Positions 2,100-39,554 of a stretch of 52,232 nt of DNA are shown here, one piece after another. A program made the translations under genes and the position numbers. The notes beneath the pieces were generated by a model. That model saw only the letters and a program-made list of their open reading frames with translations. It had not been told where the DNA came from and did no database searches. The stretch comes from Stenotrophomonas sp. UBA2302 (GTDB taxonomy: Bacteria; Pseudomonadota; Gammaproteobacteria; Xanthomonadales; Xanthomonadaceae). The stretch's first letter is position 1. Each line of letters opens with the position of its first letter. The stretch is taken from assembly GCA_002345545.1 (NCBI GenBank), contig DDVW01000075.1:26455-78686 (forward strand), given 5' to 3'.

Positions 2100-3215
2100 T
2101 TACAGCCCGAGTTCGGCCAGCACCTCGGCGGTGGATTGGCCCAGGTCGTCGATATTCGGGTTGATCCGCCCCGGCTCGTTGGCGAACTTGATCGGGATGC
2201 CCAGATGGGTACCGCCGGTTTGATCGGTCCACACCATCTCGCGGGCGCGGGTGTGCGGATCGCTGAACGCTTCGGTCAGGGTTTTCACCGGCGCCCAGCA
2301 GACATCGAGGTCGTGCAGGAACAGCGTCCACTCCACCAGCGAACGGCGCGAGAAGGTTTCGGCGAGGAAGGATTTGACCGGATCCTGTCCGGTGCCGGGC
2401 GGCAGATGGCACAGGTGGATCAGGTCCGGGCGGCCCAGTGCCATCAGCAGATTCTCGGCGAACTTGTGCTCGGCACCGCCCAGCGCGATCCAGCGGTCAT
2501 CCGAACAGCGGTACAGCTGGTACAGGGCGTTGCCGCCCCAGCTGCGCTCCTCCCGGATCACCGGGTCACGGCCCAGCGCGAACGGCGGGCCGAGCACGTT
2601 CGGCAGCCATGCCATCAGCGCATCCTGCATCGACAGGTCGATGTAGTCGCCCTCACCGGTGCGCTCGCGGCGGAACAAGGCCATCAGGATGCCGTTGAGC
2701 GCCATCAGCGAGCCGGCCATGTCGGCCACCGGCATATGCGGCATCGCCGGGGTGCCGTCGGGCGCGCGGTTGAGGCTGACCACGCCGCTGTCGGCCTGCA
2801 TCGCCAGGTCGTGGGCGGGACGGTTGACCTTGGGCCCGGTCTGGCCGAAGGCGCTGATCGAGCAGTACACCAGCTTCGGATTGATCGCCTTGCAGCGCTC
2901 GTAATCGATGCCCAGGCGCTTGGCCACGCCGGGGCGGAAGGCTTCCACCACCACGTCGGCCCATTCCACCAATTTGGCGAAGGCGGTCTTGCCGGCCTCG
3001 CTCTTGAGGTCGAGCACGATGCAGCGCTTGCCGCGATGGGTATTGCGGAACCAGGTGGAGACACCGGCCTGCTTCAGCCCGACCTCACGCACCGGCTCGC
3101 CCGTGGGCGGTTCGATCTTGATCACGTCGGCGCCGTGGTCGGCCATCACCATGGTCAGGTGCGGGCCGGGCAGGAACAGCGACAGATCGAGAACGCGTAC
3201 ACCTTCCAGTTTCAT
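2100..3215 (-). CDS. CaiB/BaiF (family III) CoA-transferase, copy 1
   Basis: This 371-residue protein is a family III CoA-transferase. It starts with the typical GVRVLDLSLFLPGPHLTMVMAD, has ADVIKIEPPTGEP near residues 29-41, and carries the acyl-CoA-accepting aspartate in the HDLAMQADSG motif (Asp136). It should move CoA between a donor such as succinyl-CoA and a carboxylic acid. It is last in the minus-strand operon, 18 bp after the second CaiB-type gene. The two proteins are paralogues of different length, so they may act on different acids, or form a heteromer as in succinyl-CoA:benzylsuccinate-type transferases. The substrate cannot be read from sequence; context suggests a C4-C6 dicarboxylate. 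ATG 3215 is preceded by GGAG. Confidence 0.92.
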   Translation of the reverse strand: MKLEGVRVLDLSLFLPGPHLTMVMADHGADVIKIEPPTGEPVREVGLKQAGVSTWFRNTHRGKRCIVLDLKSEAGKTAFAKLVEWADVVVEAFRPGVAKRLGIDYERCKAINPKLVYCSISAFGQTGPKVNRPAHDLAMQADSGVVSLNRAPDGTPAMPHMPVADMAGSLMALNGILMALFRRERTGEGDYIDLSMQDALMAWLPNVLGPPFALGRDPVIREERSWGGNALYQLYRCSDDRWIALGGAEHKFAENLLMALGRPDLIHLCHLPPGTGQDPVKSFLAETFSRRSLVEWTLFLHDLDVCWAPVKTLTEAFSDPHTRAREMVWTDQTGGTHLGIPIKFANEPGRINPNIDDLGQSTAEVLAELGL

Positions 3216-3233
3216 CGTCGTACTCCTCCGGTG

Positions 3234-4412
3234 TTACGCGCCCAGCAGTCGTGCGCAGTCTGCATCGCTGTAGCCGAGCTCGCGCAGCAGCGCACCGGCA
3301 TCGGCATTGAGCGGCGGACAGGCGTCACCGGACAGGCGCTGGCCGTCGAGCTTGATCGGGTTGCGCAGCAGGCGCTGGCTGCCTTGCGGATGGCTGACGT
3401 CCTGCAGCATGTCCACTTCGCGCACATAGGGGTTGTCCAGCGCCTGGGCGATGTCCAGCACCGGCGCGATCGGAATGCGGCCGGCGAACAGCTGCGTCCA
3501 GTAAGCGGTGGGCTGCGTGCTGAGGATGTCGTCGACCAGCACGGTGAGTTCCTCCCGCACCTTGCGGCGTTCGGCGAAGTTGGCAAAGCGCGGCTCGACG
3601 GCCCAGGCCGGATTGCCGATGCCTTCGACGAAGGTCTGCCAGAACTTCTCCAGCATGCACATCACCATCACCCAGCCATCAGCGGTCCTGTAGACCTGGC
3701 ACGGCACGGTGGACGGATGCGCACTGCGCGACAGGCGCTCGGTGCGGTGGCCTTCGTTGAGATACCAGGTGGCCGGGTAGCTGAGCTGGTGCAGGGCCAC
3801 GTCGAACAGGCTGACATCGACATCGCGGCCGATGCCGGTACGCATGGCGCCGATGATCGCGGCCAGCAGGCCCATCGACATCGTGGTGCCGGTCATGAAG
3901 TCGACCATCGACAGGCCGAAGCGCGCCGGCGGGGCGTCCGGTTCCCCGGTCAGCGCCATGAAACCGGCCTCGGCCTGCATCAGGTAGTCGTAGCCCGGCC
4001 ACGCGGCGCGCGCGTTGTCGCGGCCATAGGCGGACAGATGCGCGCAGACGATCTTCGGATTGAGTTTTGACAGCGTGGCGTAGTCCAGGCCGAGCTTGCC
4101 CGGCTGGTCGCCGCGCAGGTTGTTGAGCACCGCATCGGCGCTGGCGACGAGCTTCTCGAAGACTTCGCGGCCTTCGGCGGCCTTCAGGTCCAGCCGCAGC
4201 GAGCGCTTGTTGAGGTTGAAGGTCTGGAAGAACAGGCTGTCGCCTTCGCCCAGGAAATACGGACCGGTGGCGCGCGATACATCGCCGCCCGGCGGGGATT
4301 CGATCTTGATGACTTCGGCGCCGAGGTCGGCCAGGTGCATCGAGCCATAGGGGCCAGCACCGTACTGTTCGACGGCAAGGATGCGCAGTCCCTGCAGGGG
4401 AAGGTTTTTCAT
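3234..4412 (-). CDS. CaiB/BaiF (family III) CoA-transferase, copy 2
   Basis: This 392-residue protein is a second family III CoA-transferase. It begins MKNLPLQGLRILAVEQYGAG, has AEVIKIESPPGGDVSRATGP, and holds the catalytic aspartate in YDYLMQAEAG (Asp142). I chose ATG 4412 over a frame opening 27 bp upstream because AGAGG lies at ribosome-binding distance and the family N-terminus begins there. It precedes copy 1 by 18 bp and follows a strong terminator-like hairpin (4431-4463), so the pair may be transcribed less than the upstream acyl-CoA dehydrogenase gene, or separately. Its likely role is activation of a dicarboxylic acid to the CoA thioester for that dehydrogenase. Confidence 0.92.
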   Translation of the reverse strand: MKNLPLQGLRILAVEQYGAGPYGSMHLADLGAEVIKIESPPGGDVSRATGPYFLGEGDSLFFQTFNLNKRSLRLDLKAAEGREVFEKLVASADAVLNNLRGDQPGKLGLDYATLSKLNPKIVCAHLSAYGRDNARAAWPGYDYLMQAEAGFMALTGEPDAPPARFGLSMVDFMTGTTMSMGLLAAIIGAMRTGIGRDVDVSLFDVALHQLSYPATWYLNEGHRTERLSRSAHPSTVPCQVYRTADGWVMVMCMLEKFWQTFVEGIGNPAWAVEPRFANFAERRKVREELTVLVDDILSTQPTAYWTQLFAGRIPIAPVLDIAQALDNPYVREVDMLQDVSHPQGSQRLLRNPIKLDGQRLSGDACPPLNADAGALLRELGYSDADCARLLGA

Positions 4413-4430
4413 GTGTGGCCTCTGGTCTGT

Positions 4431-4463
4431 AAAAAACACCGCGGCTGGTTGAGGACCGCGGTG
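4431..4463 (-). terminator. Rho-independent terminator or attenuator inside the catabolic operon
   Basis: On the minus strand a perfect 8-bp stem (CACCGCGG with CCGCGGTG, arms at 4456-4463 and 4437-4444, 11-nt loop) is followed directly by six T residues (complement of 4431-4436). This is a textbook intrinsic terminator. It lies 19 bp upstream of the CoA-transferase start at 4412, so it would cut read-through from the acyl-CoA dehydrogenase gene or act as an attenuator. Confidence 0.8.
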
Positions 4464-4464
4464 A

Positions 4465-4590: not shown

Positions 4591-4594
4591 GGCC

Positions 4595-5767
4595 TTAGAT
4601 CTTGTTACGCGCCACCAGCTGCTTGGCGATGATGATGCGCTGCATCTCGTTGGTGCCTTCACCGATGCACATCAGCATGGCGTCGCGGTAGAAACGCTCG
4701 ATGTCGTATTCCACCGAATAGCTGTAGCCGCCGAAGATGCGCATGCCTTCCTGCGCGCAGTACGCGCCGGTTTCGGTGGCGAAGTACTTGGCCATGCCCG
4801 CTTCCATGTCGCAGCGCTCGCCCTTGTCATAGGCGTTGGCGGCGCTTTCGATCAGCAGCTTGGAGGCCTCGACCTTGGCCGCCATCTCGCCCAGCTTGAG
4901 CTGGATGGCCTGGTGCTCGGCGATCGGCTTGCCGAAGGTCATGCGCTCCTGCGCGTAGCGTACCGACAGGCGCAGCGCGCCTTCGGCAATGCCACAGCCG
5001 CGCGCGGCGACGTTGATGCGGCCCAGCTCCAGGCCACCGACCGCGTGCTGGAAGCCCTTGCCTTCCTCTCCACCGAGCAGGCAGTCGGCCGGCACCTTGT
5101 AATCCTGGAATACCAGTTCGCAGGTATCGATGGAGCGGTAACCGGACTTCTTCAGCTTCTTGGCGACGATGAAGCCTTCGCCCTTCTCGGCGATGAACAT
5201 GCTCATGCCCTTGTGGCGCGGCTGCGCCTCCGGGTCGGTCTTGACCAGCAGCAGCACCATGTCGCCGTGCAGCGAGTTGGTGATCCAGGTCTTGGCGCCG
5301 TTGATGACGTAGTGGTCACCCTCGCGCCTGGCCACGGTGCGGATCGCCTGCAGGTCGGTGCCGGCGTTGGGCTCGGTCAGGCCCAGCGAACCGCGCAGCT
5401 CGCCGGTCGCCATGCGTGGCAGGTACCTGGCCTTCTGCTCCTCGGTGCCGCAGCGCTCGATGGCCGCGGCCATGATCAGGTGCGAGTTGAAGATGCCGGT
5501 CGGTGCCATCCATACCGCCGAGACCTTGGTGACGATCTTGGCGTAGATGCGCGCCGGCAGGCCGAGGCCGCCGTATTCGGGCGAGATGGTGGCACCGAAC
5601 AGGCCCAGGTCCTTCATCTCCTCGACGAGGTGATGCGGGTACTTGTCCTCGAGGTCGTACTCCTGCGCGATCGGCGCGACGGATTTCTCCACCCAGTTGT
5701 CGATCGAGTCGAGCAGCGCCTGCTCCTCGTCCGGGCCCCACATCTGTTCCAGTTCGGTGCTCATCAT
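4595..5767 (-). CDS. Acyl-CoA dehydrogenase
   Basis: This 390-residue flavoprotein belongs to the acyl-CoA dehydrogenase family. Its N-terminal helical domain leads to the FAD/substrate signature LRGSLGLTEPNAGTDL (residues 129-144), then WITNS in the beta domain, and the C-terminal helices contain RMTFGKPIAEHQAIQ and the catalytic base region IGEGTNEMQR (Glu370). It should oxidise an acyl-CoA to the 2,3-enoyl-CoA and pass electrons to ETF, which fits the ETF-ubiquinone oxidoreductase at 13287. Neighbours (CoA-transferases and a MaoC hydratase) suggest a dicarboxyl-CoA such as a succinyl-type or glutaryl-CoA substrate. The start at 5767 has GAGGAAG upstream; it is 8 bp after the MaoC gene. Specificity is inferred from context. 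Confidence 0.92.
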   Translation of the reverse strand: MMSTELEQMWGPDEEQALLDSIDNWVEKSVAPIAQEYDLEDKYPHHLVEEMKDLGLFGATISPEYGGLGLPARIYAKIVTKVSAVWMAPTGIFNSHLIMAAAIERCGTEEQKARYLPRMATGELRGSLGLTEPNAGTDLQAIRTVARREGDHYVINGAKTWITNSLHGDMVLLLVKTDPEAQPRHKGMSMFIAEKGEGFIVAKKLKKSGYRSIDTCELVFQDYKVPADCLLGGEEGKGFQHAVGGLELGRINVAARGCGIAEGALRLSVRYAQERMTFGKPIAEHQAIQLKLGEMAAKVEASKLLIESAANAYDKGERCDMEAGMAKYFATETGAYCAQEGMRIFGGYSYSVEYDIERFYRDAMLMCIGEGTNEMQRIIIAKQLVARNKI

Positions 5768-5775
5768 CGGCTTCC

Positions 5776-6294
5776 TCAGTAGTTGACCTTGTCTTCCACC
5801 GAGTGGCCGCGCTTGGCGATCAGCATGGTGCGGCTGAAGCTGCAGACCAGCTTGCCGTCCTGGTTGAAACCGTCGGTCTGCACGGTGACGATGCCGGCGC
5901 CCGGGCGCGATTTGGATTCACGCTTGTCCAGCACCTTGGATTCGGCCACCAGGGTGTCGCCGACAAACAGCGGATGGGTCATCTTGATGTCGCTCCAGCC
6001 GAGGTTGGCCACGGCCTTCTGGCTGACGTCGGTGACGCTCATGCCGACCATCAACGCCACGGTGAACGGCGAGCAGACGATAACCTTGCCGAACTCCGAG
6101 GCCTTGGCGTACTCCTTGTCGAAGTGCATCGGATGGGTGTTCATCGTCAGCAGGGTGAACCAGGTGTTGTCGGTTTCGGTGATGGAGCGGCCGGGGCGGT
6201 GCTCGTAGATGTCGCCGACGTTGAACTCTTCGTAGTAGCGGCCGAAGGTTTCGCGGAAGCGGTTCTCGGAGATCTGCTTGACGTTCTGGACCAT
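5776..6294 (-). CDS. MaoC-like enoyl-CoA hydratase
   Basis: This 172-residue single hot-dog protein is of the MaoC (R-specific hydratase) family. The hydratase loop is present as LTMNTHPMHFDKEYA, where the usual SGDxNPLH consensus is replaced by MNTHPMH. The same MNTHPMH-type loop is, from memory, seen in MaoC proteins beside CitE-type lyases, including mesaconyl-CoA and itaconyl-CoA hydratases. It probably hydrates the enoyl-CoA made by the dehydrogenase encoded 8 bp downstream. ATG 6294 is preceded by AAAGGA at good spacing; longer upstream extensions of the frame lack a ribosome-binding site. The substrate is inferred from neighbours. Confidence 0.88.
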   Translation of the reverse strand: MVQNVKQISENRFRETFGRYYEEFNVGDIYEHRPGRSITETDNTWFTLLTMNTHPMHFDKEYAKASEFGKVIVCSPFTVALMVGMSVTDVSQKAVANLGWSDIKMTHPLFVGDTLVAESKVLDKRESKSRPGAGIVTVQTDGFNQDGKLVCSFSRTMLIAKRGHSVEDKVNY

Positions 6295-6384: not shown

Positions 6385-7239
6385 TCAGCCGGCGCGGACG
6401 CCGAGTGCACCGAGCGCGATGGCACGCTCGGCTGCGATTTCGATGGGACGGTCCACCAGCTTGCCGTCGAGCTGGATGGCCTCGCCGCCGCTGGCCGCCA
6501 GTGCGGCCACGACGCGCTGCGCGCGGTCGTACTCGGCGGCGGTGGGCAGATAGGCGTTCTGGATGGGATCGACCTGGGCCGGATGGATCGCCGCCTTGGC
6601 GGTGAAGCCGAGGTCGATCACACGGTTGGTTTCAGCCACCAGTCCGGCTTCGTCCTTGATGTCCAGGTAAGGCACATCCATGCAGCCGACGCCGGCCTCG
6701 GCGGCAATCGTTGCCAGCTGCACACGCGGATGGAAGAAACTCTCCCAGCCGGCACGGCCGCGCAGCGCGACGATGTAGTCGAACCCCCCGAACATCAGTG
6801 CCTGCAGGCGCGGGATGGCAGTGGCAAGCGCGCGTGCATCCAGCAGCCCCTTGGGCGTTTCGATCTGGGCGATGAACACGGTGTCGATCGCCGACAGCGC
6901 GGCGTCGGCCTGCTGCAGCTCGGCCACGGTTTCTACCTTGGGCAGCATCACGAACGCGGGCTTCAGGCCGGAGGCGGCCAATGCCTTCAGGTCAGCCTGG
7001 CCCAGTTCGGTGGACAGCGGGTTGATGCGCAGGCCGATCTCGCTGCGGGTTTGCGGCAGCTCGGCAAGAAAGGCGAACAGCGAGGCGCGCGCGCTTTCCT
7101 TGTCCGCCGGGGCGACGGCGTCTTCCAGATCGATGCAGACCTGGTCGGCACCGGTGGCCACGGCCTTGGCATACCGCTCAGGGCGCGAACCCGGCACAAA
7201 CAGCAGGCAGCGGCGCGGATTGCTCGACGGCATGCTCAT
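6385..7239 (-). CDS. CitE/HpcH-family acyl-CoA lyase
   Basis: This 284-residue TIM-barrel protein has the HpcH/HpaI (CitE-like) signatures: LLFVPGSRPERY at the N-terminus, VCIDLEDAVAPADK near residues 34-47, IGLRINPL, VMLPKVETV, AQIETPKGLLDA, and AAIHPAQVDPIQNA near the C-terminus. Family members cleave 3-hydroxyacyl-CoA esters such as citramalyl-CoA, beta-methylmalyl-CoA or malyl-CoA into an acyl-CoA and a 2-oxo acid, with Mg2+ held by conserved Glu and Asp. Following a MaoC hydratase, it would cleave the hydrated intermediate. ATG 7239 overlaps the stop of the preceding amidohydrolase gene (ATGA), so translation is likely coupled. A second ATG lies at 7233. Confidence 0.9.
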   Translation of the reverse strand: MSMPSSNPRRCLLFVPGSRPERYAKAVATGADQVCIDLEDAVAPADKESARASLFAFLAELPQTRSEIGLRINPLSTELGQADLKALAASGLKPAFVMLPKVETVAELQQADAALSAIDTVFIAQIETPKGLLDARALATAIPRLQALMFGGFDYIVALRGRAGWESFFHPRVQLATIAAEAGVGCMDVPYLDIKDEAGLVAETNRVIDLGFTAKAAIHPAQVDPIQNAYLPTAAEYDRAQRVVAALAASGGEAIQLDGKLVDRPIEIAAERAIALGALGVRAG

Positions 7240-8102
7240 GGGGCGGCCACCTGCGCGGCGAAGTGCTCGGCGATCTGCCGGCGCGTCGCATACCAGGTGC
7301 CCGGCTTCTGCGCCACGTACTGCAGGAATTTCTCGAACGCGCGGATGCGGCCGGGGCGGCCGATGATGCGCAGGTGCAGGCCCAGCGACATCACCTTGGG
7401 GCTGTGCCCGCCTTCGGCATACAGGGTGTCGAAGCTGTCGATGGCGTAGTCCAGCCAGTCTTTCGGCAAGTACGACGGTGCCACCCACATCTTCATGTCG
7501 TTGGTGTCGAGCTGGTACGGCACCACGATCATCGGCTGCTCGCTGCCCTCGACCTCGCCCCAGAACGGCGCATCGGCCGAGTAGTCGTCCATGTGGTACA
7601 GGAAGCCTTCCTCCTGCAGCAGGCGACGGGTGGACGCGGTATGCAGGTAGCGCGACAGCCAGCCCACCGGACGCACGCCGGTGGTCTTCTCGATGCTGTC
7701 GGCGGCATCGCGGATGAACTGCCGTTCCTGTTCCTCGTTGAAGCGGAACTGGTGGATCCAGCGGTGCCCGTGCGAACAGGTTTCATGGCGGCTGCCACGC
7801 AGATAGGCGGCGATTTCCGGCGCCCGCTCCAGCGACACCGCCGCGGCGGTATAGGTGCTGGTGACGTTGTACTTGTCCAGCAACGTGGCCACGCGCGCAT
7901 GGCCTTCGTTGACGCCATAGCGGTAGTTGGACTCGTTGCCGTAGTTGCGCACCGGCTTGGACAGCGTCACATGCAGCTCGTCCACCGGCTCGGTGATCTT
8001 GTCCCCCTGGCCAACGTTGTATTCGGACAGCTCCTCGACATTGACCACCACCGACAGGGCCAGGCGGGCGTTGTTGGGCCAGGTGTAGGCAGGCTTGCTC
8101 AT
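7236..8102 (-). CDS. PuuE-like polysaccharide-deacetylase-fold amidohydrolase, copy 1
   Basis: This 288-residue protein has the NodB/polysaccharide deacetylase fold in its PuuE-like form. The usual metal-binding TFDD is replaced by VVVNVEELSEY near residues 18-28; YGNESNYRYGVNEG follows; the second motif is SHGHRWIHQF near 109-118. Characterised relatives (metal-independent allantoinase PuuE, and as I recall a Pseudomonas cyclic imide hydrolase) open cyclic amide or imide rings, so this is a candidate imidase. The gene sits between an SDR and a CitE-type lyase in a catabolic operon rather than beside purine genes, which argues against allantoin. Two further members of the fold lie in the opposite operon (11374 and 12306). 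Its substrate is unknown. Confidence 0.85.
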   Translation of the reverse strand: MSKPAYTWPNNARLALSVVVNVEELSEYNVGQGDKITEPVDELHVTLSKPVRNYGNESNYRYGVNEGHARVATLLDKYNVTSTYTAAAVSLERAPEIAAYLRGSRHETCSHGHRWIHQFRFNEEQERQFIRDAADSIEKTTGVRPVGWLSRYLHTASTRRLLQEEGFLYHMDDYSADAPFWGEVEGSEQPMIVVPYQLDTNDMKMWVAPSYLPKDWLDYAIDSFDTLYAEGGHSPKVMSLGLHLRIIGRPGRIRAFEKFLQYVAQKPGTWYATRRQIAEHFAAQVAAP

Positions 8103-8975: not shown

Positions 8976-8995
8976 GACCAAAGTTCCTTGTGCGT

Positions 8996-15879: not shown

Positions 15880-15880
15880 C

Positions 15881-16309: not shown

Positions 16310-16411
16310 CCGCTTCTCCCTGGAATCCCGGCCGGCGAGCATACCCTGCGACCGGGCCAGGATTCCGCGGCGATGCGTTCTTCCTTCTTCCTCCGCCCGC
16401 TGTTCCCGACC

Positions 16412-18743: not shown

Positions 18744-18814
18744 TCTTTCTCTCCATGGCAGTGCGGCTGCGGATATCGCTGCCGTTGCCGCCTACTGCGT
18801 CAACGAGGAGTGGC

Positions 18815-26126: not shown

Positions 26127-26142
26127 GTTCTGCCCCATTTGT

Positions 26143-27027: not shown

Positions 27028-27047
27028 CAATATGTCCGGACATATTG
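27028..27047. promoter_or_regulatory. 20-bp perfect operator palindrome (TGTCCGGACA class)
   Basis: Perfect 20-bp dyad CAATATGTCCGGACATATTG, 51 bp upstream of the VOC gene start at 27099 and 55 bp after the GntR stop. The core is identical to that at 9333, 17556, 31494 and 36038. It suggests that the VOC gene has its own regulated promoter. Confidence 0.78.
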
Positions 27048-31600: not shown

Positions 31601-33721
31601 ATGAAAGAAGTTGTGTACCGGAGTGCATTGGCGGTTGCGATCGTGGCTGCCTTGAGTTGTGGAGAACTCCACGCCCAGAACCCCCCCCCTGCTGAAGACA
31701 CTGTGCAGCTGGACCAAGTCAGCGTGACTGCCCAGCGACGCGAAGAACAGCTCCAGAAAACACCGCTCAGCATGAGCGTGATCAGCGGGCCGGCCTTGGA
31801 CCGCATGCAGATCCAGCGCGTGGACGACGTCAAGTTCACCACGCCCAACATCATTATCGAGCAGAACACCGGCACCAGCTCGAACGCCAAGATCATCATG
31901 CGCGGCGTCGGCGCCGATGAGTCGATGTTCACCAACGACCCGGCCGTGGCGCTGTATATCGACGACGTGTACATCGCGCGCCAGAACGGCGCCATGCTCG
32001 ACCTCTACGACGTCGACCGCATCGAAGTACTGCGAGGGCCGCAGGGCACCCTGTACGGTCGCAATGCCACCGGCGGCGCCATCCGCTACATCTCCAAGAA
32101 ACCGACCGGCGAAGACAAGCTGGCCTTCGACGCCAGCGTCGGCAACCTCGGCCGGCTGGATGGCCGCGCCATGTTCGCCACCCGCATCGGCGAAACCCTG
32201 GACATGTCGGCGGCAGTGCTCAGCCGCAACCGCGACGGCATCATGAAGGACCTCACCCACGACCGCATGGTCAACGACCAGAAGGTACTGGCTGGTCGCC
32301 TGGCATTCGCCAGCACCTGGGGCGAGGCTTCCTATGCCACCTTGAGCATCGACCGCCTGCGCGAACGCTCCACGCCAGCCTGGGGCACCCCGGTGGCGCG
32401 AGACCCGAGCACTGACAAGGTCACGCCCAAGCTGGGCAGCTTCTACCGGACGCAGACCGACACCCTCGGCATCAACGATCTGGACCAGTTCGGCCTCGCC
32501 CTGACCAACGAAACCGACTTTGGCGCGTTCTCGTGGCGCAGCATCCTGCACTACCGCGAGCTGCAGCATCACTTCTACATGGACGTGGATGGCACCGAGC
32601 AGATGCGTTACCACCTGGAACAGGATCAGAAGCAGAACCAGCGTGGATACGAGGCCCAGTTCACCTCGCAGACCGAAGGCCCCTTCAGCTGGGTGGCCGG
32701 CGCGTTCGCGTTCAAGGAACATAACAACCAGCCCACCCGCAATGACATCTTCACCCGCGGCGGTACCAACTACGTCAAGCAGGACACCACCGCCTACGCG
32801 CTGTACGCACAAGGCGACTACAAGTTCACCGACAAGCTGACCTTCACCCTGGGCGGCCGCTACAGCTATGAGAACAAGGACTTCTCGGTGCGCTCGGTGA
32901 AGGCCAACGGTGATCCGAACTACAGCAAGGAACTGGAGAAGAGCTGGAACCGCCCTGATTGGAAGGTGTTGCTGTCCTATGACTTCAGCGACAACGTGAT
33001 GGGCTATGCCAGCGTCACCACCGGCTTCAAGAGCGGTGGCTTCAACGGCCGCGGCACCACCTATGAGACGGTCACCCCTGTTGATGCCGAGACCCTGCGC
33101 GCCTACGAGGTAGGCGTGAAGTCCACGCTGTGGGACAACCGCCTGCGTCTGAACGCTGACTACTACCGCCTGGAGTACGACGGCATCCAGCTGACGGCGG
33201 TGAACTCCGATGGCGTGTTCGTGATGACCAACGCCACCGGTGCGCTGATCCAGGGCTTCGAGGTGGACGCCCAGGCGCAGCTGACCAGCAAGCTGCGCCT
33301 GGATGCGAGCATCGGCACCATTGATGGTGAGTACAAGGACTATGCAGCCGTCAACGCGGCCTACTTCAAGGGCCTCTCGATGAAGAGCTCGCCGGACATG
33401 CAGTGGACCCTGGCAGCCACCTACGTGCAGCCGGTCGGCAACGCCGACCTGGTGTTCAGTGGCCAGGCCCGCCATACCGATGAGTATTACCAGAACCAGG
33501 ACACCTCGCGGCTGATCATGACCCGCGCCAATACCGAGTACAACGCACGCATCTCCTACGAGCCGCGTGACGCCAACTGGTCGGTGGCTGCGTGGGGCAA
33601 GAATCTGAGCAACGAGTTCGCCTCCGCCGGTGGCTTCGACATCGCCGGCCTGGGCATCGGTGTGATCTACCCCAACGTGCCGCGTACCTACGGCCTCGAG
33701 TTCAAGTACCGCTTCTGGTAA
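31601..33721 (+). CDS. TonB-dependent outer-membrane receptor
   Basis: This 706-residue protein has a signal peptide (MKEVVYRSALAVAIVAALSC, cleavage after ELHA), a TonB-box-like LDQVSVTAQRREE near residues 38-50, a plug domain (NIIIEQNTGTSSNAKIIMRG, DDVYIAR, then VLRGPQGTLYGRNATGG near 142-158) and a beta-barrel ending GLEFKYRFW with the terminal aromatic. It belongs to the short sphingomonad/xanthomonad type without a signalling extension. It should import the substrate of this region with energy from TonB. ATG 31601 has GAGG upstream; earlier in-frame starts lack the signal peptide. A nine-C run lies just after the signal cleavage site. Confidence 0.93.
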   Translation: MKEVVYRSALAVAIVAALSCGELHAQNPPPAEDTVQLDQVSVTAQRREEQLQKTPLSMSVISGPALDRMQIQRVDDVKFTTPNIIIEQNTGTSSNAKIIMRGVGADESMFTNDPAVALYIDDVYIARQNGAMLDLYDVDRIEVLRGPQGTLYGRNATGGAIRYISKKPTGEDKLAFDASVGNLGRLDGRAMFATRIGETLDMSAAVLSRNRDGIMKDLTHDRMVNDQKVLAGRLAFASTWGEASYATLSIDRLRERSTPAWGTPVARDPSTDKVTPKLGSFYRTQTDTLGINDLDQFGLALTNETDFGAFSWRSILHYRELQHHFYMDVDGTEQMRYHLEQDQKQNQRGYEAQFTSQTEGPFSWVAGAFAFKEHNNQPTRNDIFTRGGTNYVKQDTTAYALYAQGDYKFTDKLTFTLGGRYSYENKDFSVRSVKANGDPNYSKELEKSWNRPDWKVLLSYDFSDNVMGYASVTTGFKSGGFNGRGTTYETVTPVDAETLRAYEVGVKSTLWDNRLRLNADYYRLEYDGIQLTAVNSDGVFVMTNATGALIQGFEVDAQAQLTSKLRLDASIGTIDGEYKDYAAVNAAYFKGLSMKSSPDMQWTLAATYVQPVGNADLVFSGQARHTDEYYQNQDTSRLIMTRANTEYNARISYEPRDANWSVAAWGKNLSNEFASAGGFDIAGLGIGVIYPNVPRTYGLEFKYRFW
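31681..31689 (+). repeat. Nine-base poly-C tract in the TonB receptor gene
   Basis: Nine consecutive C residues encode the Asn-Pro-Pro-Pro stretch just after the predicted signal cleavage site (codons 27-30). Gain or loss of one base would shift the frame early in the gene, so slipped-strand on/off switching is possible. The frame is intact here. Confidence 0.7.
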
Positions 33722-33741: not shown

Positions 33742-33772
33742 ACATCGCTCCCGCACGGGAGCGATGTCTTTT
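33742..33772 (+). terminator. Terminator hairpin after the TonB receptor gene
   Basis: A perfect 11-bp stem (ACATCGCTCCC with GGGAGCGATGT, loop GCAC) is followed by CTTTT. It lies between the receptor gene and membrane protein D. The ribosome-binding GGAG of the latter comes directly after, so it may be a partial terminator that lowers expression of the downstream gene. Confidence 0.75.
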
Positions 33773-33782
33773 GGAGACCACG

Positions 33783-34445
33783 ATGGATTACCAATTGCTG
33801 TTGTTGTTGCACCTGTTGATCGGCGGCTACTGGCTGGGCGGTGACCTGGGTGTGTTCTACATCGCCGGCAAGATCGCCGACCCGGCGCAGCCGCTGCCGG
33901 TGCGCCTGTTCTCGGCCAAGGCGATGATGCTGTTGGACATGGTTCCGCGCACCTGCCTGATCATGGCACTTGGCACCGGCCTGACCGTGGCCACGCAGGC
34001 CGGCCTGCTGCCGCTGAAGGGCTGGCTGTGGCTGGTATGGCTGGGCACGCTGGCTTGGCTCGGCCTCGCTTGGGCAGCCTTCCTGAAGGAACACTCGGCT
34101 GCCGGCCTGCGCATCGCGCGTGTGGATTTCTACCTGCGCCTGCTGGTGCTGGTGGGCTGCGTGGCCGCCGGCATCGACGCGCTGGGCGACGGCGGCTATG
34201 TGCTGCAGAGCCGTTGGCTGGGTGCCAAGCTGATCCTGCTGGCCGGCATCATCAGCATGGGGCTGCTGGTACGCATCCAGCTGCGTCCGTTTGGCCCGCT
34301 GTTCGGCAAGGTGGTCACCGGCACCGCCAGCGATGCCGACCAGCAGGCGCTCAAGCAGCTGATAGCGCGGGTGAAGATCCCGGTGCTGTGCATCTGGTTG
34401 ATCATCCTGACCATCATGGTGCTGGGCAAGCTCAAGCCGTTCTGA
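33783..34445 (+). CDS. Membrane protein of the four-copy local family, member D
   Basis: This 220-residue protein has about six hydrophobic helices and the clearest family pattern: LLLLHLLIGGYWLGGDLGVFYI at the start, LLDMVPRTCLIMALGTGL near residues 49-66, and GKLKPF at the C-terminus. It follows the TonB receptor gene by 61 bp across a terminator-like hairpin. GGAG lies 7 bp before ATG 33783. Function unknown; the conserved His of helix 1 and the DMVPR loop suggest a bound cofactor or metal. Confidence 0.8.
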   Translation: MDYQLLLLLHLLIGGYWLGGDLGVFYIAGKIADPAQPLPVRLFSAKAMMLLDMVPRTCLIMALGTGLTVATQAGLLPLKGWLWLVWLGTLAWLGLAWAAFLKEHSAAGLRIARVDFYLRLLVLVGCVAAGIDALGDGGYVLQSRWLGAKLILLAGIISMGLLVRIQLRPFGPLFGKVVTGTASDADQQALKQLIARVKIPVLCIWLIILTIMVLGKLKPF

Positions 34446-34703: not shown

Positions 34704-35987
34704 TCAGGCCACGCCGCGTACCGCCGCCGAATCCACGCCCGGCTGGCCTCCCTCGCCTGCCGTCGTCGCAAACGCCAAGCGCCGCTCATCACGGACGAAG
34801 AACGAAGCCAGCAGACCAATCGCTACCAGCACCGCGATCACCGTGAATGCCAGATGGTAGTTGCCAAAGTGATCAAACATCACCGCCGTCAGCCAGATGC
34901 CCAAGCCCGCCGAGGTGGCATCCAACAGCGAGATAGTGCCAAGGATCTTGCCCGCCGCGCTGAGCCCGAAGGCTTCGACAATCTGCAGCTGCAAGATCGC
35001 GTACAGCCCGCCCCAGCCCAAACCCATCACGATCAGGCCAGTCCACAAAAGGCTGGCCTGCTGCAGCGCGATGATCACCGCACCCACCGCCATCAGCGCC
35101 ACATTGCAGACAAATACCTTCTTGGATGTGGTCACATCGGCCAGAAAGCCGAACAGGAACTTGCCGGCCATGCCCAGCCCGAACAGCAGGAACATGCCAT
35201 CGGCCGCCTGCTTGCCGCTGAAACCCAGATCCTTCATGTTGAGGATCAGGTGCGACGACAGCGACATGATTCCCCAGAACGTGGTCACCGCTACCAACGC
35301 CAACGCCCAGAAGGTGCGCGTGCGCAGGGCCTGGCGGTAACTCAGGTCAGGCAGCAGGCTGCAGCGCCCCGGGCTGCTGGTGGCCACGGTTTGGCCCTCG
35401 CCCCAACGCCTCAGGCCCTTGCCATCGGGCGAACGCACCAGTGCCAGGCACAGCACGAACAGTGCCATCGGGATCACCGCCATCAGCAGGAAACTGCCGC
35501 GCCAGCCATGCTCGGGTAACAAGGCGACGATGATCTTCGGCACCAGCATGCCGCCCAGGCTGCTGCCCACCAGCGCGATGCCCAGCGCGGTACCACGGCG
35601 GGTCTGGAACCACTGCGAGACCATGATCACCGCAACGCTCAGGCCGCTGCTCACGACCACCGCGGCAAAGCCAACATGGATCAGGTAGACATGGGCGATG
35701 GAGTGCACCTGCGAGTAGGCCGCGTACAGAACCGCCAGCAGCACACTGCCGAACAGGGCCAGGCTGCGTACCCCGATGCGATCGATCAGGGCGCCGACGA
35801 ACGGCGACATCAGCGCAGCCAGCAGCAGGTTGAACATGTCGCGGAACTTTAGCTGGCCTCGGCTCCAGCCGAACTCTTCCAGCAGCGAGGGATCGAAGGC
35901 GGTGATCCCGGTCATGGTCATGCCATTGGAAATCGCCAGCATCAGCATGGCCACGATGCAGATCAGCCACGGGTAGAAACGTTTCAT
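34704..35987 (-). CDS. MFS transporter, copy 2
   Basis: This 427-residue 12-helix major facilitator begins MKRFYPWLICIVAMLMLAIS, carries GALIDRIGVRSL in loop 2-3 and ends in an extra soluble tail after FVRDERR. It is paralogous to the MFS protein at 9445 along its full length. The start at 35987 corresponds exactly to that of copy 1; the much longer open frame upstream overlaps the regulatory region and GntR gene and is not supported. A TGTCCGGACA core lies 50 bp upstream. It probably imports a pathway intermediate that differs from that of copy 1. Confidence 0.9.
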   Translation of the reverse strand: MKRFYPWLICIVAMLMLAISNGMTMTGITAFDPSLLEEFGWSRGQLKFRDMFNLLLAALMSPFVGALIDRIGVRSLALFGSVLLAVLYAAYSQVHSIAHVYLIHVGFAAVVVSSGLSVAVIMVSQWFQTRRGTALGIALVGSSLGGMLVPKIIVALLPEHGWRGSFLLMAVIPMALFVLCLALVRSPDGKGLRRWGEGQTVATSSPGRCSLLPDLSYRQALRTRTFWALALVAVTTFWGIMSLSSHLILNMKDLGFSGKQAADGMFLLFGLGMAGKFLFGFLADVTTSKKVFVCNVALMAVGAVIIALQQASLLWTGLIVMGLGWGGLYAILQLQIVEAFGLSAAGKILGTISLLDATSAGLGIWLTAVMFDHFGNYHLAFTVIAVLVAIGLLASFFVRDERRLAFATTAGEGGQPGVDSAAVRGVA

Positions 35988-36127: not shown

Positions 36128-36158
36128 CATTAAGATCAAAGGTCTGGCCGACACCATC

Positions 36159-36953
36159 GTGAATCCGTTCACCACCCAATCCCTGGAGGGCATCCTCCGC
36201 CGCGACGTGCACACGCCGCTCTATCACCAGCTGCAGGGCTTCCTGCGCGGACTGATCGAGCGCGGCGAGGTCGCCGATGGCGAGCAGCTGCCGCGTGAGG
36301 AGGAGCTGGCCCGGCGCCTGCGCATCTCGCGGGTGACGGTGCGTCAGGCCCTGCAGATCCTGGCCGACGACGGCCTGCTGGTGCGCCAGCGGGGCCGCGG
36401 CACCCGCGTGGTCGGTGGCAAGGGACGCAGTTCGGCGATCCCGATGCCGCTGAAGACGCCGCTGGGCGAGCTGATCCACAGCCTCGACACGCTGGCCGGC
36501 AATACCCAGGTGCGCCTGCTCGGCTGGGAGCGTGTTGTGCCGCCGGAACCGGTCCGCGTGCAGTTCGGCAGCGGCCCGGACGAGCCGCTGGTGCGCTGCG
36601 TGCGCGTGCGTTCGCGTCATGGCCATCCGTTCGGCTACTACGCCAGCTGGACCCGCACTGCGCATCCGGACTTCAACGCCGAGAACCTGGCCTATGGCTC
36701 GCGGATCGCGCTGTTCCGCCGCTGCGGCATCCGCTTCGTCCAGGTCCGGCAGACCGTGTCGGCGTTGCGGGTGGGCGCGCTGACCGCGCTGCACCTGCAG
36801 ATGTCACCCGGACAGGCGGTGATGACGCTGGAACGCCGCTCCTACGGCGATGAGCAGCAACTGCTGGACCTGCTGGAAATCCAGTACCGCCCCGACCAGC
36901 TGCGCTACCAGATGCGCCTGGACTATGAAGCCAACCCGGAGACTTCTGTTTGA
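36159..36953 (+). CDS. GntR-family transcriptional regulator, HutC subfamily, copy 2
   Basis: This 264-residue regulator has the winged helix (TPLYHQLQGFLRGLIERGEV, PREEELARRLRISRVTVRQAL, GLLVRQRGRGTRVV) and a UTRA domain (VVPPEPVRVQF, FGYYASWTRT, LLDLLEIQYRPDQ). It is a paralogue of the regulator at 26184. The start is GTG 36159; no ATG precedes the helix-turn-helix. The stop TGA is shared with the TTG start of the LeuC-type gene, so regulator and enzyme are co-translated. Its ligand is probably a substrate or product of the hydratase encoded behind it. Confidence 0.92.
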   Translation: MNPFTTQSLEGILRRDVHTPLYHQLQGFLRGLIERGEVADGEQLPREEELARRLRISRVTVRQALQILADDGLLVRQRGRGTRVVGGKGRSSAIPMPLKTPLGELIHSLDTLAGNTQVRLLGWERVVPPEPVRVQFGSGPDEPLVRCVRVRSRHGHPFGYYASWTRTAHPDFNAENLAYGSRIALFRRCGIRFVQVRQTVSALRVGALTALHLQMSPGQAVMTLERRSYGDEQQLLDLLEIQYRPDQLRYQMRLDYEANPETSV

Positions 36954-38221
36954 GCGCAACACTTGCCGAAAAGATCCTCGCCCGCGCCTGCGGACGTGAA
37001 GCCGTGCGCGCCGGTGAGATCCTCACCGCGAAACTCGACCTGCTGATGATGCATGACTCCGGTGGGCCGCGGCGGGTGGCGTCACGGCTGGAAAAGCTCG
37101 GCGCCAGGGTGTGGGATCCGGACAAGGTGGTGGTGGTCTCGGACCACTTCGTGCCCGCGGTGGATATGGAAAGCGCGGACATCCTGGCGCTCACCCGCCG
37201 CTGGGCGCAGGCCCATGGCATCACCCATTACGACATGCTCGGCATCTGCCACGTGGTGCTGCAGGAACACGGCCACGTGCAGCCGGGCATGTTCTGCGTC
37301 GGTGGTGATTCGCACTCGCCCAGCGGTGGCGCGTTCGGCGCGTTCATGGTCGGCATGGGCGCCACCGACATCACCGGCGCACTGGTCACCGGCGAAGTCT
37401 GGCTGCGCGTGCCGCAGACCACCCGCGTGCAGCTGGACGGCACCCTCGCCACCGGCGTCAGCGCCAAGGACGTGATGTTGATGCTGTGCGCCGCGCACGG
37501 CATGGGCAACGAAGGCCAGGTGTTCGAGTACGGCGGCAGCGCGGTGCAGGCCATGCCGATGCACGAGCGCCTGACCCTGTGCAACATGGCTGCCGAACTG
37601 GGCGCGGAAACCGGCATCGTCGAGCCGGATGCGACAACGCTGGCGGCACTGGAGGCGGCCGGCAAGCCGTTCCACGGCGATCTGGCGCACTGGCGCAGCG
37701 ATACCGACGCCCGTTACCTGCATCACTACCGCTACGACGCCGCGCACATCGCGCCGCACGTGGCCGCCCCGCACAGCCCGGCCAACAGCCGGCCGGTCGA
37801 TGAGCACGGCAAGGTCCACATCGATCAGGCCTATATCGGCGCCTGCACCGGCGCCAAGCTGACCGACCTGCGCATGGCCGCCGAAGTGCTCAAGGGCCGC
37901 AAGGTCGCCAAGGGCACGCGCCTGCTGATCGCCCCGGCCTCGGTGGCGATGACCGCGCAGGCCGCCGCCGAAGGCACGCTGGCCACGCTGACCGAGGCCG
38001 GTGCCATCCTGCTGCCGTCTGGCTGCGGCGCCTGCGCCGGCATGGGCGCGGGCATGCTCAGCAGCGGCGAGGTGTGCATGTCCACCACGGCGCGCAACTT
38101 CAAGGGCCGCATGGGCTCGGCCGAGGCGCAGGTCTATCTCGGCTCGCCGTACTCGGTGGCCGCCGCGGCGGTGAAGGGCGAAATCTGCGATCCGCGCGAA
38201 CTGCTGGGAGAAAGCGCATGA
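36950..38221 (+). CDS. LeuC/homoaconitase-type hydro-lyase, large subunit
   Basis: This 423-residue protein is the large subunit of an aconitase-superfamily hydro-lyase. The 4Fe-4S cysteines are visible: Cys299 in IGACTGAK, Cys359 and Cys362 in SGCGACAGMG. Other family parts are VVVVSDHFVPAVD, FCVGGDSHSPSGGAFG and ATDITGALVTGEVW. Relatives include isopropylmalate isomerase, homoaconitase and 2,3-dimethylmalate dehydratase. No leuA or leuB is near, and it is controlled with a GntR gene, so a catabolic role hydrating a substituted maleate is likely. The start is TTG 36950, overlapping the GntR stop; the next ATG is well inside the protein. The stop overlaps the small-subunit start. Confidence 0.92.
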   Translation: MSATLAEKILARACGREAVRAGEILTAKLDLLMMHDSGGPRRVASRLEKLGARVWDPDKVVVVSDHFVPAVDMESADILALTRRWAQAHGITHYDMLGICHVVLQEHGHVQPGMFCVGGDSHSPSGGAFGAFMVGMGATDITGALVTGEVWLRVPQTTRVQLDGTLATGVSAKDVMLMLCAAHGMGNEGQVFEYGGSAVQAMPMHERLTLCNMAAELGAETGIVEPDATTLAALEAAGKPFHGDLAHWRSDTDARYLHHYRYDAAHIAPHVAAPHSPANSRPVDEHGKVHIDQAYIGACTGAKLTDLRMAAEVLKGRKVAKGTRLLIAPASVAMTAQAAAEGTLATLTEAGAILLPSGCGACAGMGAGMLSSGEVCMSTTARNFKGRMGSAEAQVYLGSPYSVAAAAVKGEICDPRELLGESA

Positions 38222-38715
38222 ATGTCCGTGGCAAGGCCTTCGTCTTCGGCGACCGCATCGATACCGATGTGCTCGCGCCCGGCCCGTACATGCGCGAACC
38301 GCTGTCCGTGCTGGCCAGCCACTGCCTGGAAGCGGTCGACCCGCACTTCGCCGGGGAAGTGCGGCGCGGTGATATCGTCGTCGGCGGCGAGTCGTTCGGC
38401 ATCGGCTCCTCGCGCGAGCAGGCGGTGCAGGCGCTGGCCGAACTGGGCGTCGGCGCCATCGTCGCGCGCTCGTTCGCGCGCATCTTCTATCGCAACGCGC
38501 TCAACCTCGGCGTACCGGCACTGGTCTGTACGGATCTGGAAGTGTCGCGCGGCGATGCGCTGGAAGTGCGACCGGTCGAAGGCCGCATCCTCAACCACAG
38601 TACCGGCCGCGAATTTTCCTGCGAGAAGATCCCCGCCGAACTGATGGACATCGTCGCCGGCGGCGGGCTGATGCCATGGCTGGAACGCAAACTCGCCGCG
38701 GAAAGACGCCCATGA
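38218..38715 (+). CDS. LeuD/homoaconitase-type hydro-lyase, small subunit
   Basis: This 165-residue swivelling-domain subunit begins MNVRGKAFVFGDRIDTDVLAPGPYM and has the conserved FGIGSSREQAVQAL (residues 60-73) that binds substrate carboxylates. Length and motifs fit archaeal-type homoaconitase/LeuD and dimethylmalate dehydratase small subunits. The YMREPLSVLASHCLEAVDP loop, which sets specificity in this superfamily, differs from the YLK/R-type loops of standard LeuD. It overlaps the large-subunit gene and the following VOC gene by ATGA on both sides, so all three are co-translated. Confidence 0.92.
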   Translation: MNVRGKAFVFGDRIDTDVLAPGPYMREPLSVLASHCLEAVDPHFAGEVRRGDIVVGGESFGIGSSREQAVQALAELGVGAIVARSFARIFYRNALNLGVPALVCTDLEVSRGDALEVRPVEGRILNHSTGREFSCEKIPAELMDIVAGGGLMPWLERKLAAERRP

Positions 38716-39554
38716 AATCCGGAATTCTCCACGCCACCCTGATCGCCCCGCAGCTGCCGCCGGTGGTCGAGGCCTATGCCGCGCAGCTGTCGATGCGCGA
38801 GCACGCCCGCGGCAGCCTCGCTGCCGACGATGCCGCCGCGCTGGACCTGCCCGAGCTGGCCGGTGCCCCGTTCGTGTGGCTGGCCAACAGCGTCGGCGAA
38901 CCGGTGCTGCGCGTCATCGAGGACCCGCAGGCGGTGATCGGCGAACCGATGTTCCGCCACGGCTGGCTATCGCTGGAAGTGCTGGTCGGTGATGTCGACG
39001 CGTTGGCCGCCGGCCTGCAACCGCCGTTCACCGTGCTCGGCCCCGCCGCCAACCTCGAGCTCAGCGACGCCATCCGCGCCGCGCAGGTACTCGGTCCCTG
39101 CGGCGAGCTGCTCTACCTCACCCAGATCAAGGCACCGGTACCGCCGTTCGACCTGCCGATGACCGACGCCACCGTCGCGACCACCTTCATCGGGGTGATG
39201 ACCACACCCGATCGCGACGCCTCGCAACGCGCCTGGTCGGCATTGCTCGGTGCCCCGGGCTGGGCCTTCGACACCAAGATCACCGTACTCAACCGCGCCT
39301 ACGGCCGGCCGCTGGAAGGCAGCTACCCGGTGGCGGTGGTGCCGATGCCCGGGCAGTGCATGGTCGAGATCGACCAGGTGGAACTGCCAGCGGCCCCCGC
39401 CCGGCGCGCGGCTGGCACGCACAGCCTGTGCCTGCGCCTGCCGGCGGTGGACGACGCCGTCCTGCGTGCGGCCGGCTGGCAGGTGGCCGCCATCGGCAAT
39501 CGCCGCAGCTTGCGCGGCCCGGCCGGCGAGCATGTGGAACTGCTCGGCGCGTAA
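38712..39554 (+). CDS. VOC-like protein co-translated with the hydro-lyase
   Basis: This 280-residue protein has two related halves of VOC type: one with RHGWLSLEVLVGDVDALAAGL near residues 80-100, and a C-terminal part ending RSLRGPAGEHVELLGA, where the Glu could be a metal ligand. The N-terminus (KSGILHATLIAPQLPPVVEAY) has a His at the usual first metal position. It may be an isomerase, epimerase or lyase acting on the hydratase product. It is the last gene of the GntR-hydratase operon. The assignment is to fold level only. Confidence 0.65.
   Translation: MKSGILHATLIAPQLPPVVEAYAAQLSMREHARGSLAADDAAALDLPELAGAPFVWLANSVGEPVLRVIEDPQAVIGEPMFRHGWLSLEVLVGDVDALAAGLQPPFTVLGPAANLELSDAIRAAQVLGPCGELLYLTQIKAPVPPFDLPMTDATVATTFIGVMTTPDRDASQRAWSALLGAPGWAFDTKITVLNRAYGRPLEGSYPVAVVPMPGQCMVEIDQVELPAAPARRAAGTHSLCLRLPAVDDAVLRAAGWQVAAIGNRRSLRGPAGEHVELLGA

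Follow-up and report, generated by a model that had tools for sequence, protein, structure and literature searches.

A candidate co-regulated gene island of Stenotrophomonas for the catabolism of cyclic imides from oxidised tetrapyrrole pigments

Which compounds are degraded by a gene cluster that combines PuuE-like ring-opening amidohydrolases with a hydratase, a carbon-carbon lyase and a TonB-dependent receptor? Such a cluster occupies positions 2100-39554 of a 52,232-nucleotide stretch of Stenotrophomonas sp. UBA2302 (contig DDVW01000075.1; "the window" denotes this whole stretch), the DNA of which is of proteobacterial type with high GC. From open reading frame (ORF), codon and Pfam evidence, 36 genes were called in this region (Table 1). 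Pfam scans of the window returned two CoA_transf_3, three Polysacc_deac_1, two MFS_1, two Cytochrom_C and two GntR-UTRA proteins, together with acyl-CoA dehydrogenase (ACAD), MaoC, HpcH/HpaI, HapK, isochorismatase, ETF-QO (ETF-quinone oxidoreductase), PEP_mutase/PrpB, FAD_binding_4, the large and small aconitase subunits and a TonB receptor, confirming each enzyme, transporter, flavoprotein and cytochrome family that an initial annotation, made from the sequence alone, had named there. The region is probably a co-regulated island for the catabolism of cyclic imides derived from oxidised tetrapyrrole pigments. This imide and tetrapyrrole reading, already put forward as a candidate in the initial annotation, was supported by the imidase precedent of the PuuE fold, by co-occurrence and co-localisation with red chlorophyll catabolite reductase (RCCR, PF06405), and by glutaryl-CoA dehydrogenase (GCDH) near the imide module. 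The direct evidence comprises gene content, a shared operator, conserved modules and the co-occurrence of RCCR and GCDH, from which we infer the reactions, their order and the substrate.

Ring opening would reside in a gene triplet encoding an isochorismatase-family amidase, PuuE2 and PuuE3. All three PuuE-like proteins of the window, PuuE1 included, contained Polysacc_deac_1 (34.3, 35.8 and 44.3 bits against a cut-off of 23.1) and showed homology to PuuE structures such as 3cl6, which places them in the PuuE-fold superfamily. None reached the allantoinase equivalog TIGR03212 (cut-off 424.6 bits), the scores being 234 for PuuE1, 137.4 for PuuE2 and 70 for PuuE3. The polar positions common to PuuE (E, H, ND, H), which we take to be catalytic, were kept in 100% of PuuE1 and PuuE2 sequences (20-21 sampled sequences per group). 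The isochorismatase domain of the amidase scored 101.4 bits with PF00857, and the protein stayed below the cut-offs of the RutB and biuret-hydrolase equivalog models.

Relatives of the triplet were compared in 122 loci, comprising the best 80 from a GTDB genome scan, five loci on plasmids and 37 in additional genomes; three duplicate pairs left 119 distinct loci. Among the best 80, the closest PuuE2 relatives came from Stenotrophomonas terrae, Stenotrophomonas sp. SY1 and S. humi (94-95% identity). The loci were selected by PuuE2, which is present by construction, and the informative part is therefore that the other two genes always accompany it: isochorismatase and PuuE3 both occurred in 122/122 loci, and the triplet was adjacent, on one strand and with gaps of <400 bases, in all but L027, L035 and L081 (116/119 distinct loci). 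The imide cluster lay near insertion sequence elements on plasmids typed as conjugative in Burkholderia plantarii (p1, L002) and Acidiphilium (L005), and the pathway is therefore probably mobile.

In work on Blastobacter and Pseudomonas, the cyclic-imide pathway reportedly consists of an imidase and a half-amidase leading to a dicarboxylate. The accessible part of PMC9304392 describes HxnM as an enzyme that opens a cyclic imide, shares 64% identity with a cyclic imide hydrolase homologue from P. putida and is structurally near a protein whose closest characterised relative is PuuE; reference 33 of that paper is the YZ-26 imidase. Cyclic imidases are among the described members of the PuuE fold, and the imide reading of the window is supported by this analogy. 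As in the Blastobacter/Pseudomonas pathway and in HxnM/HxnN of Aspergillus nidulans (PMC9304392, same part), a PuuE-related imidase would open the ring and an amidase would remove ammonia. Unlike those systems, the window has two PuuE-like proteins with an isochorismatase-type amidase, a hydratase, a C-C lyase and TonB import, and its relatives show an association with bilin-type reductases.

When chlorophyll or haem is oxidised, haematinic acid arises together with methyl-, methylethyl- and methylvinyl-maleimides. As far as the available text of PMC7318184 goes, haematinic acid was reported in the leaves studied, with maleimides below detection there, and earlier findings of both in senescent leaves and lake sediments are cited. 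In the proposed route, the TonB and MFS proteins would import a pyrrolic pigment or fragment, the FAD-linked oxidase and cytochromes c would oxidise it, PuuE2/PuuE3 would open a substituted maleimide ring and the isochorismatase-type amidase would take off ammonia. Haematinic acid, which carries methyl and propionate side chains, would on opening and deamidation give methyl-homoaconitate. This would be converted by the homoaconitase-family LeuCD into methyl-homoisocitrate, one CH2 longer than the normal PrpB substrate, which PrpB would cleave into pyruvate and glutarate; glutarate would exit via a CoA transferase and GCDH. Each proposed step has a known enzymatic precedent.

Both the lyase and the hydratase exceeded family thresholds beyond those listed in Table 1: PrpB also passed NF008455 (511.7 versus 353) and the LeuC-like subunit TIGR02086 (444.2 versus 410.15). 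The latter stayed below the equivalogs for true homoaconitase (HacA_Meth, 393.8 versus 550) and leucine-type LeuC (LEU2, 385 versus 610.65). In passing family cut-offs, the two window proteins resemble the end step of the methylcitrate cycle and the homoaconitase-family hydratases, respectively; they differ from the methylcitrate end step in that the predicted substrate, methyl-homoisocitrate, is one carbon longer and its acid would derive from an imide, and from the cycle as a whole in that no citrate-synthase family appeared among the Pfam scan results of the window. The PrpB that the initial annotation called an orphan was confirmed as PrpB; the orphan status is qualified by a second copy, with 78-82% identity, elsewhere in 4 of 11 related genomes (G001, G002, G003 and G007), consistent with a duplicated copy recruited to a new use. 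VOC3 homologues adjoin LeuCD or PrpB in several related loci.

The glutarate prediction was matched by the presence of GCDH near the module in 13 of the 119 distinct loci, namely in Burkholderia, in Rhodocyclaceae, in nine loci from the family of genome G045 (L073, Alteromonadaceae bacterium) and in two from the order of genome G019 (L033, Halioglobus japonicus). This is as expected if a haematinic-acid-type maleimide is converted to pyruvate and glutarate, and it lends support to the earlier idea of a maleimide cleaved to pyruvate plus a dicarboxylate; the prediction preceded the identification of GCDH, but followed the sight of an unnamed ACAD and CaiB in the B. plantarii cluster. In that plasmid cluster, GCDH (E 1.8e-220) occurs together with the triplet, LeuCD and PrpB, and the closest named PDB enzyme of its CaiB is human SUGCT (E 1.6e-107), of the succinyl-CoA:glutarate CoA transferase type. 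GCDH linkage was found in 6/10 loci with window-type LeuC versus 2/24 with the other LeuC type (P 0.0034).

The same hydratase and lyase could be read as a nicotinate- or pyridine-type pathway via dimethylmaleate, as in nicotinate fermentation, since the LeuD/DmdB-type small subunit scored above its cut-off next to a PrpB-superfamily lyase, and since the fungal nicotinate route uses a PuuE-related imidase in the accessible part of PMC9304392. We regard this as scarcely probable: the families from the window Pfam scans included neither a molybdenum hydroxylase nor a gene of the methyleneglutarate-mutase type, and the pairing with GCDH and RCCR would be left unexplained.

The RCCR family emerged when the ORFs of the loci were clustered de novo; five loci carried it, two of them from Microbulbifer. 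The representative scored 48.3 bits with PF06405 (cut-off 24.9), its best PDB sequence match was plant RCCR (E 4.8e-7), and the top nine Foldseek matches of its model (pLDDT 84.5) were plant RCCR followed by bilin reductases. In a whole-genome survey of the genomes from 50 of the best 80 loci, PF06405 occurred in 22/50 module-carrying genomes versus 0/14 control genomes. The 293 genomes in the order of G019 included 10 with RCCR and 21 with PuuE2, and all 10 RCCR genomes fell among these 21 (P 3.2e-13, kinship uncorrected). Within the family of G045, RCCR was present in 8 of 246 genomes, seven of them among the 26 with PuuE2, and the eighth (L046) had the module in a broken frame. The single control family, nitrile hydratase PF02979, was found in 16/293 genomes with two overlapping the module (P 0.32). 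RCCR lay at most 75 kb from PuuE2, a limit fixed after the distances were seen, in 15 of 18 genomes, and 460-900 kb away in the other three (G118, G205 and G221); the chance model assumed a genome of 4.3 Mb with two RCCR genes, and for G029, where the PuuE2 frame is broken, the PuuE2 position was taken from the contig range.

Stretches of 55-78 kb around the module were compared in four genomes of the G045 family (G450, G423, G542 and G540) and in G276, the RCCR of which is 82% identical to that of Microbulbifer. They have in common two or three RCCR-family genes, a flavin reductase, a rubredoxin-reductase fusion, an FAD_binding_3 monooxygenase, a nitrilase, a second isochorismatase, aldehyde dehydrogenases, TonB receptors, CaiB and HMG-CoA-lyase-like genes, PrpB, MFS and GntR. 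LeuCD and the membrane protein family of the window were each found in at least 4/5 islands. A Rieske oxygenase with VanA_C/KshA_C domains occurs in the four G045-family islands, and none is labelled in G276. The search for the window gene set in other genomes, proposed in the initial annotation, thus yielded not only the conserved triplet but also 20/36 window gene families in the 78 kb stretch of G540, 21/36 in G276 and only 10/36 in G450. Identities between G540 and the window were 61% for CaiB1, 67% for CaiB2, 69% for ACAD, 84% for MaoC, 70% for PuuE1, 61% for SDR1 (the first short-chain dehydrogenase), 61% for HapK, 64% for LeuC and 62% for LeuD. Because islands with RCCR-family genes share its gene families, the window appears to match the lower part of islands that, in other genomes, contain linear-tetrapyrrole reductases.

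In plant chlorophyll breakdown, pheophorbide a oxygenase and RCCR act and the route ends at phyllobilins. The related islands resemble it in holding RCCR-family proteins and, in several cases, a Rieske oxygenase, which is only a putative counterpart of the plant oxygenase; unlike plants, they add imide-opening and cleavage genes. The window differs from both the plant route and the related islands in having neither an RCCR nor a Rieske gene. With about even confidence, we propose that the window and its relatives supply the lower half, so far missing, of tetrapyrrole mineralisation by bacteria, in which linear tetrapyrroles from chlorophyll, bilins or haem would be broken into monopyrrole imides that enter two routes, haematinic acid giving pyruvate and glutarate and succinimides following a methylsuccinate-like CoA route. 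In the same joint proposal, the islands of marine relatives would add the upper half, with RCCR-family reductases and often a Rieske oxygenase, making a whole pathway from pigment to central metabolism.

Some further proteins of these islands deserve mention. Two proteins at L152:12635-13618 (327 aa) and L152:16924-17505 (193 aa) had no Pfam or NCBIfam match and are conserved near the Rieske and rubredoxin-reductase genes of RCCR-bearing islands. A third, weaker RCCR/bilin-reductase-like protein (L198:2539-3288; Fe_bilin_red 9.3e-5, below cut-off) is conserved beside a nitrilase and an acyl-CoA-dehydrogenase-like flavoprotein.

Several observations weigh against the tetrapyrrole reading. No RCCR match was obtained in the window (tblastn, two RCCR queries, E 1), and none in the 12 closest genomes tested (G001-G011 and G013), which belong to Stenotrophomonas, Lysobacter, Lysobacteraceae, Xanthomonadales, Wenzhouxiangella, Steroidobacteraceae and one proteobacterium. 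RCCR was likewise lacking from 28/50 module carriers overall, from 11/21 in the order of G019 and from 19/26 in the family of G045, and the co-occurrence counts and P values ignore genome relatedness. GCDH was absent near the module in all loci other than the 13 described; the ACAD of the window is not a GCDH (best match 4iv6; 28% identity to the B. plantarii GCDH), and the GCDH-like gene found elsewhere in 10/11 near relatives is merely 48-51% identical to the B. plantarii enzyme. In PuuE3, the first H was kept in 81% of the 20-21 sampled sequences and N was mostly replaced by E. The membrane proteins Mem1-Mem4, the VOC proteins and the DUF3108-like protein have no place in the proposed route. 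Finally, many loci carry other downstream tails beside the triplet, such as HMGL with CaiB, oxoprolinases, or AMP-binding with ACAD genes, so that the triplet has no specific tie to haematinic acid.

Since the window and its 12 closest genomes lack RCCR, their pigment or its incoming form must differ, and may be a bilin, a phyllobilin, prodigiosin or the imides themselves. The looser conservation of PuuE3 at the PuuE polar positions might reflect a role as partner subunit or activity on a different ring. Given the 28/50 carriers without RCCR and the varied downstream partners, the triplet is best seen as a putative general opener for substituted imides that serves several pathways. A broader alternative would make the whole region a general cyclic-imide or cyclic-ureide island for succinimide, glutarimide, methylmaleimide or hydantoins, used mainly as nitrogen sources, with an accidental tie to tetrapyrrole reductases in large marine islands. 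It would accommodate the action of PuuE-fold cyclic imidases on simple imides (PMC9304392, accessible part), the oxoprolinase/hydantoinase genes beside the triplet in Salipiger and Acidiphilium and the AMP-binding/ACAD genes in Comamonas, and the RCCR-free carriers among the 50 surveyed genomes and the 21 of the G019 order. However, the TonB receptor, LeuCD, PrpB and GCDH would presumably be superfluous for simple imides, and RCCR carriers in two groups were all, or nearly all, module carriers, which the single control family was not. We therefore consider this alternative unlikely, and retain an island for imides of tetrapyrrole origin as the preferred explanation.

A parallel operon, comprising PuuE1, CaiB1, CaiB2, ACAD, MaoC, the CitE-type lyase, SDR1 and HapK, would handle succinimide-type saturated rings at the CoA-thioester level: the ring would be opened and the product activated with CoA, desaturated, hydrated and cleaved to pyruvate and an acyl-CoA. 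Chlorophyll has a saturated ring in its ring D, and reduced bilins in their outer rings. We infer a succinimide route because a dehydrogenase would be needed solely for a saturated ring, and such rings are expected from chlorophyll and reduced bilins. The complete operon also occurs in two Microbulbifer loci that carry the RCCR family. The accessible part of PMC12290011 describes methylsuccinate use in Pseudomonas and Cupriavidus by a CoA transferase, methylsuccinyl-CoA dehydrogenase, hydratase and citramalyl-CoA lyase. The operon could thus be a mere itaconate/methylsuccinate cluster adjoining an unrelated imide module, since its reaction logic equals that of the pseudomonadal cluster, in which a CoA transferase, ACAD, hydratase and CitE lyase lead to pyruvate and an acyl-CoA, and its CitE is RipC-like. 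This is quite improbable: unlike the cluster in that part of PMC12290011, the window operon adds PuuE1, a short-chain dehydrogenase, HapK and two CaiB proteins, its lyase scored 220.4 bits with the RipC model NF038242 (cut-off 375), CitE occurred together with PuuE1 in 19/119 loci, the operator is common to the rest of the window, and no MmgE/PrpD isomerase was among the families from the window Pfam scans. The RedY/HapK-like gene, which had been taken to point toward pyrroles, scored well above its Pfam cut-off; for the GlcG/HbpS-like remnant cited alongside it, three additional ORFs in the gap at 15.9-17.5 kb gave no corresponding Pfam match, although not every frame there was scanned.

The shared operators claimed in the initial annotation were borne out. 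A 12-base palindrome, WTGTCCGGACAW, has five copies in the window (9338, 17557, 27032, 31495 and 36037) versus 0.38 expected, and 0/100 shuffles reached five. The copies precede HapK/MFS1, Mem1, VOC2, TonB and the MFS2/GntR1 divergon, and because they sit in gaps upstream of operons, the region probably forms one regulon, for which GntR1 and GntR2 (47% identical) are the obvious candidate regulators. The exact pattern was present in 18 of 207 loci searched, directly upstream of HapK in L012, L015, Rubrivivax L075, L157 and genome G540; in Rhodocyclaceae L080, it is placed between LeuCD and a GCDH-isochorismatase-PuuE2-PuuE3 series. A second, AT-rich palindrome, ATATTGATATATCAATAT, lies at 29686-29703 upstream of Mem3, with a partial copy at ~31531 before the TonB gene, and is a possible site for another regulator.

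No description of such a gene set for imide or tetrapyrrole catabolism, or of genes that process the small pyrrolic products of chlorophyll further, was found in the open-access literature (titles and abstract starts among the matches listed; subscription papers and preprints were mostly outside the scope). The available part of PMC8669743 describes bacterial degradation of porphyrins from sediments into compounds that contain one to three pyrrole rings, and gives general oxygenases and dehydrogenases, with no such gene cluster named there. Chlorophyll is formed and degraded at about 10^12 kg per year, according to the portion of PMC7318184 at hand. If the proposal is true, isochorismatase-PuuE2-PuuE3, RCCR homologues and GCDH-linked LeuCD/PrpB would serve as marker genes for following how pigments are recycled in soils and seas, and the enzyme set would be directly testable, with specific predicted intermediates and end products; the tetrapyrrole reading, if proved, would constitute a new pathway class.

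Table 1 Features of positions 2100-39554 of the window with their supporting evidence
Feature	Coordinates	Strand	Evidence and remarks
CaiB1, family III CoA transferase	2100..3215	-	PF02515 E 1.7e-107
CaiB2, family III CoA transferase	3234..4439	-	PF02515 E 1.1e-111
Acyl-CoA dehydrogenase, not GCDH type	4595..5767	-	Pfam; best PDB match 4iv6 E 9e-127
MaoC-type hydratase, mesaconyl-CoA-hydratase-like	5776..6294	-	PF19315 7.8e-26, PF01575 1.4e-20
CitE-type lyase, RipC-like	6385..7233	-	PF03328 1.6e-38; start 7239 also possible
PuuE1, ring-opening amidohydrolase candidate	7236..8102	-	TIGR03212 234 bits, below cut-off; PuuE 3cl6 E 3.1e-62
Short-chain dehydrogenase SDR1	8133..8981	-	PF13561 8.8e-61
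HapK/RedY-like small protein	8996..9304	-	PF11639 1.6e-10, 41.9 bits vs cut-off 25
Operator TTGTCCGGACAA	9338..9349		between HapK and MFS1; conserved in relatives
MFS1 carrier	9445..10671	+	PF07690 1.7e-36; 56% to MFS2
Isochorismatase-family amidase (half-amidase candidate)	10703..11377	+	PF00857 8.1e-29; adjoins PuuE2 in relatives
PuuE2, cyclic imidase candidate	11374..12309	+	PF01522; 3cl6 E 2e-30
PuuE3, constant partner of PuuE2	12306..13226	+	PF01522; 3s6o E 3.9e-19
ETF-quinone oxidoreductase	13287..14966	+	PF05187 5.4e-50, PF21162 3e-44
PrpB, 2-methylisocitrate-lyase type	14995..15879	+	TIGR02317 413.6 bits vs cut-off 354.4
Cytochrome c 1 (start uncertain)	16373..16807	+	PF00034 1.8e-5
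Operator TTGTCCGGACAA	17557..17568		upstream of Mem1
Mem1, membrane protein	17608..18282	+	no Pfam match
Cytochrome c 2	18303..18743	+	PF00034 8.6e-6
VOC1 glyoxalase-fold protein	18755..19306	+	PF00903 7.5e-11
DUF3108-like protein	19303..20022	+	PF11306 0.0055, below cut-off; homologues in 34/119 loci
Mem2, membrane protein	20024..20686	+	no Pfam match
FAD-linked oxidase (FAD_binding_4)	20683..22266	+	PF01565 2.7e-31
Aldehyde dehydrogenase	22571..23989	-	PF00171 7.2e-112
Nitrilase-superfamily amidase	23982..25025	-	PF00795 4.9e-29
Enoyl-CoA hydratase	25347..26138	-	PF00378 4.7e-46
GntR2, GntR-UTRA regulator	26184..26972	+	PF07702 1.3e-19, PF00392 1.6e-18
Operator ATGTCCGGACAT	27032..27043		upstream of VOC2
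VOC2, tandem glyoxalase-fold protein	27099..28037	+	PF00903 3.5e-12
Alpha/beta hydrolase	28061..29644	-	PF00561 5.8e-16
Mem3, membrane protein	29785..30450	+	no Pfam match
Short-chain dehydrogenase SDR2	30470..31258	+	PF13561 8.7e-48
Operator TTGTCCGGACAA	31495..31506		upstream of TonB
TonB-dependent receptor	31601..33721	+	PF00593 1.1e-37, PF07715 4.3e-19
Mem4, membrane protein	33771..34445	+	no Pfam match; model pLDDT 91, helical bundle
MFS2 carrier	34704..35987	-	PF07690 1.5e-45
Operator ATGTCCGGACAA	36037..36048		between MFS2 and GntR1
GntR1, GntR-UTRA regulator	36159..36953	+	PF07702 5.5e-19
LeuC-like hydratase large subunit, homoaconitase-family	36950..38221	+	PF00330 5.3e-89; TIGR01343 458.9 bits vs 385.7
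LeuD/DmdB-like hydratase small subunit	38218..38715	+	PF00694 1.2e-15; TIGR02087 160.5 bits vs 108.95
VOC3, weakly glyoxalase-like	38712..39554	+	PF13669 0.013, below cut-off

At the proposed oxidising front end, the FAD-linked oxidase has D-lactate dehydrogenase and p-cresol methylhydroxylase among its PDB relatives and would pass electrons to the cytochromes c. Its distant relationship to p-cresol methylhydroxylase and eugenol oxidase, its position near cytochromes c and the inclusion of dioxygenases in the VOC superfamily (Pfam description) would fit the catabolism of alkylphenols or lignin-derived aromatics, with the oxidase acting as a 4-alkylphenol flavocytochrome. Such a function is very improbable, as the best solved relatives of the oxidase are D-lactate dehydrogenase, an unnamed oxidoreductase and glycolate oxidase, no specific ring-cleavage family appeared among the Pfam scan results of the window, and imidases and a homoaconitase-type hydratase would presumably be superfluous. 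For pigment-derived imides, the FAD-linked oxidase, the cytochromes c and the four membrane proteins could together form an alternative oxidising front end.

Mem1-Mem4 are four divergent paralogues, helical membrane proteins 21-32% identical where BLAST aligned them; the one copy tested had no NCBIfam match. Their invariant residues (H14, R45, D56, R60, R123 and K153 in Mem4 numbering) might bind a cofactor or substrate. Of the 527 aa of the alpha/beta hydrolase, Pfam matches extend to about residue 239 and leave the second half without assignment. A urea transporter gene (1047-2033; PF03253, E 1.2e-86) flanks the island and is perhaps nitrogen-related, perhaps an unrelated flank.

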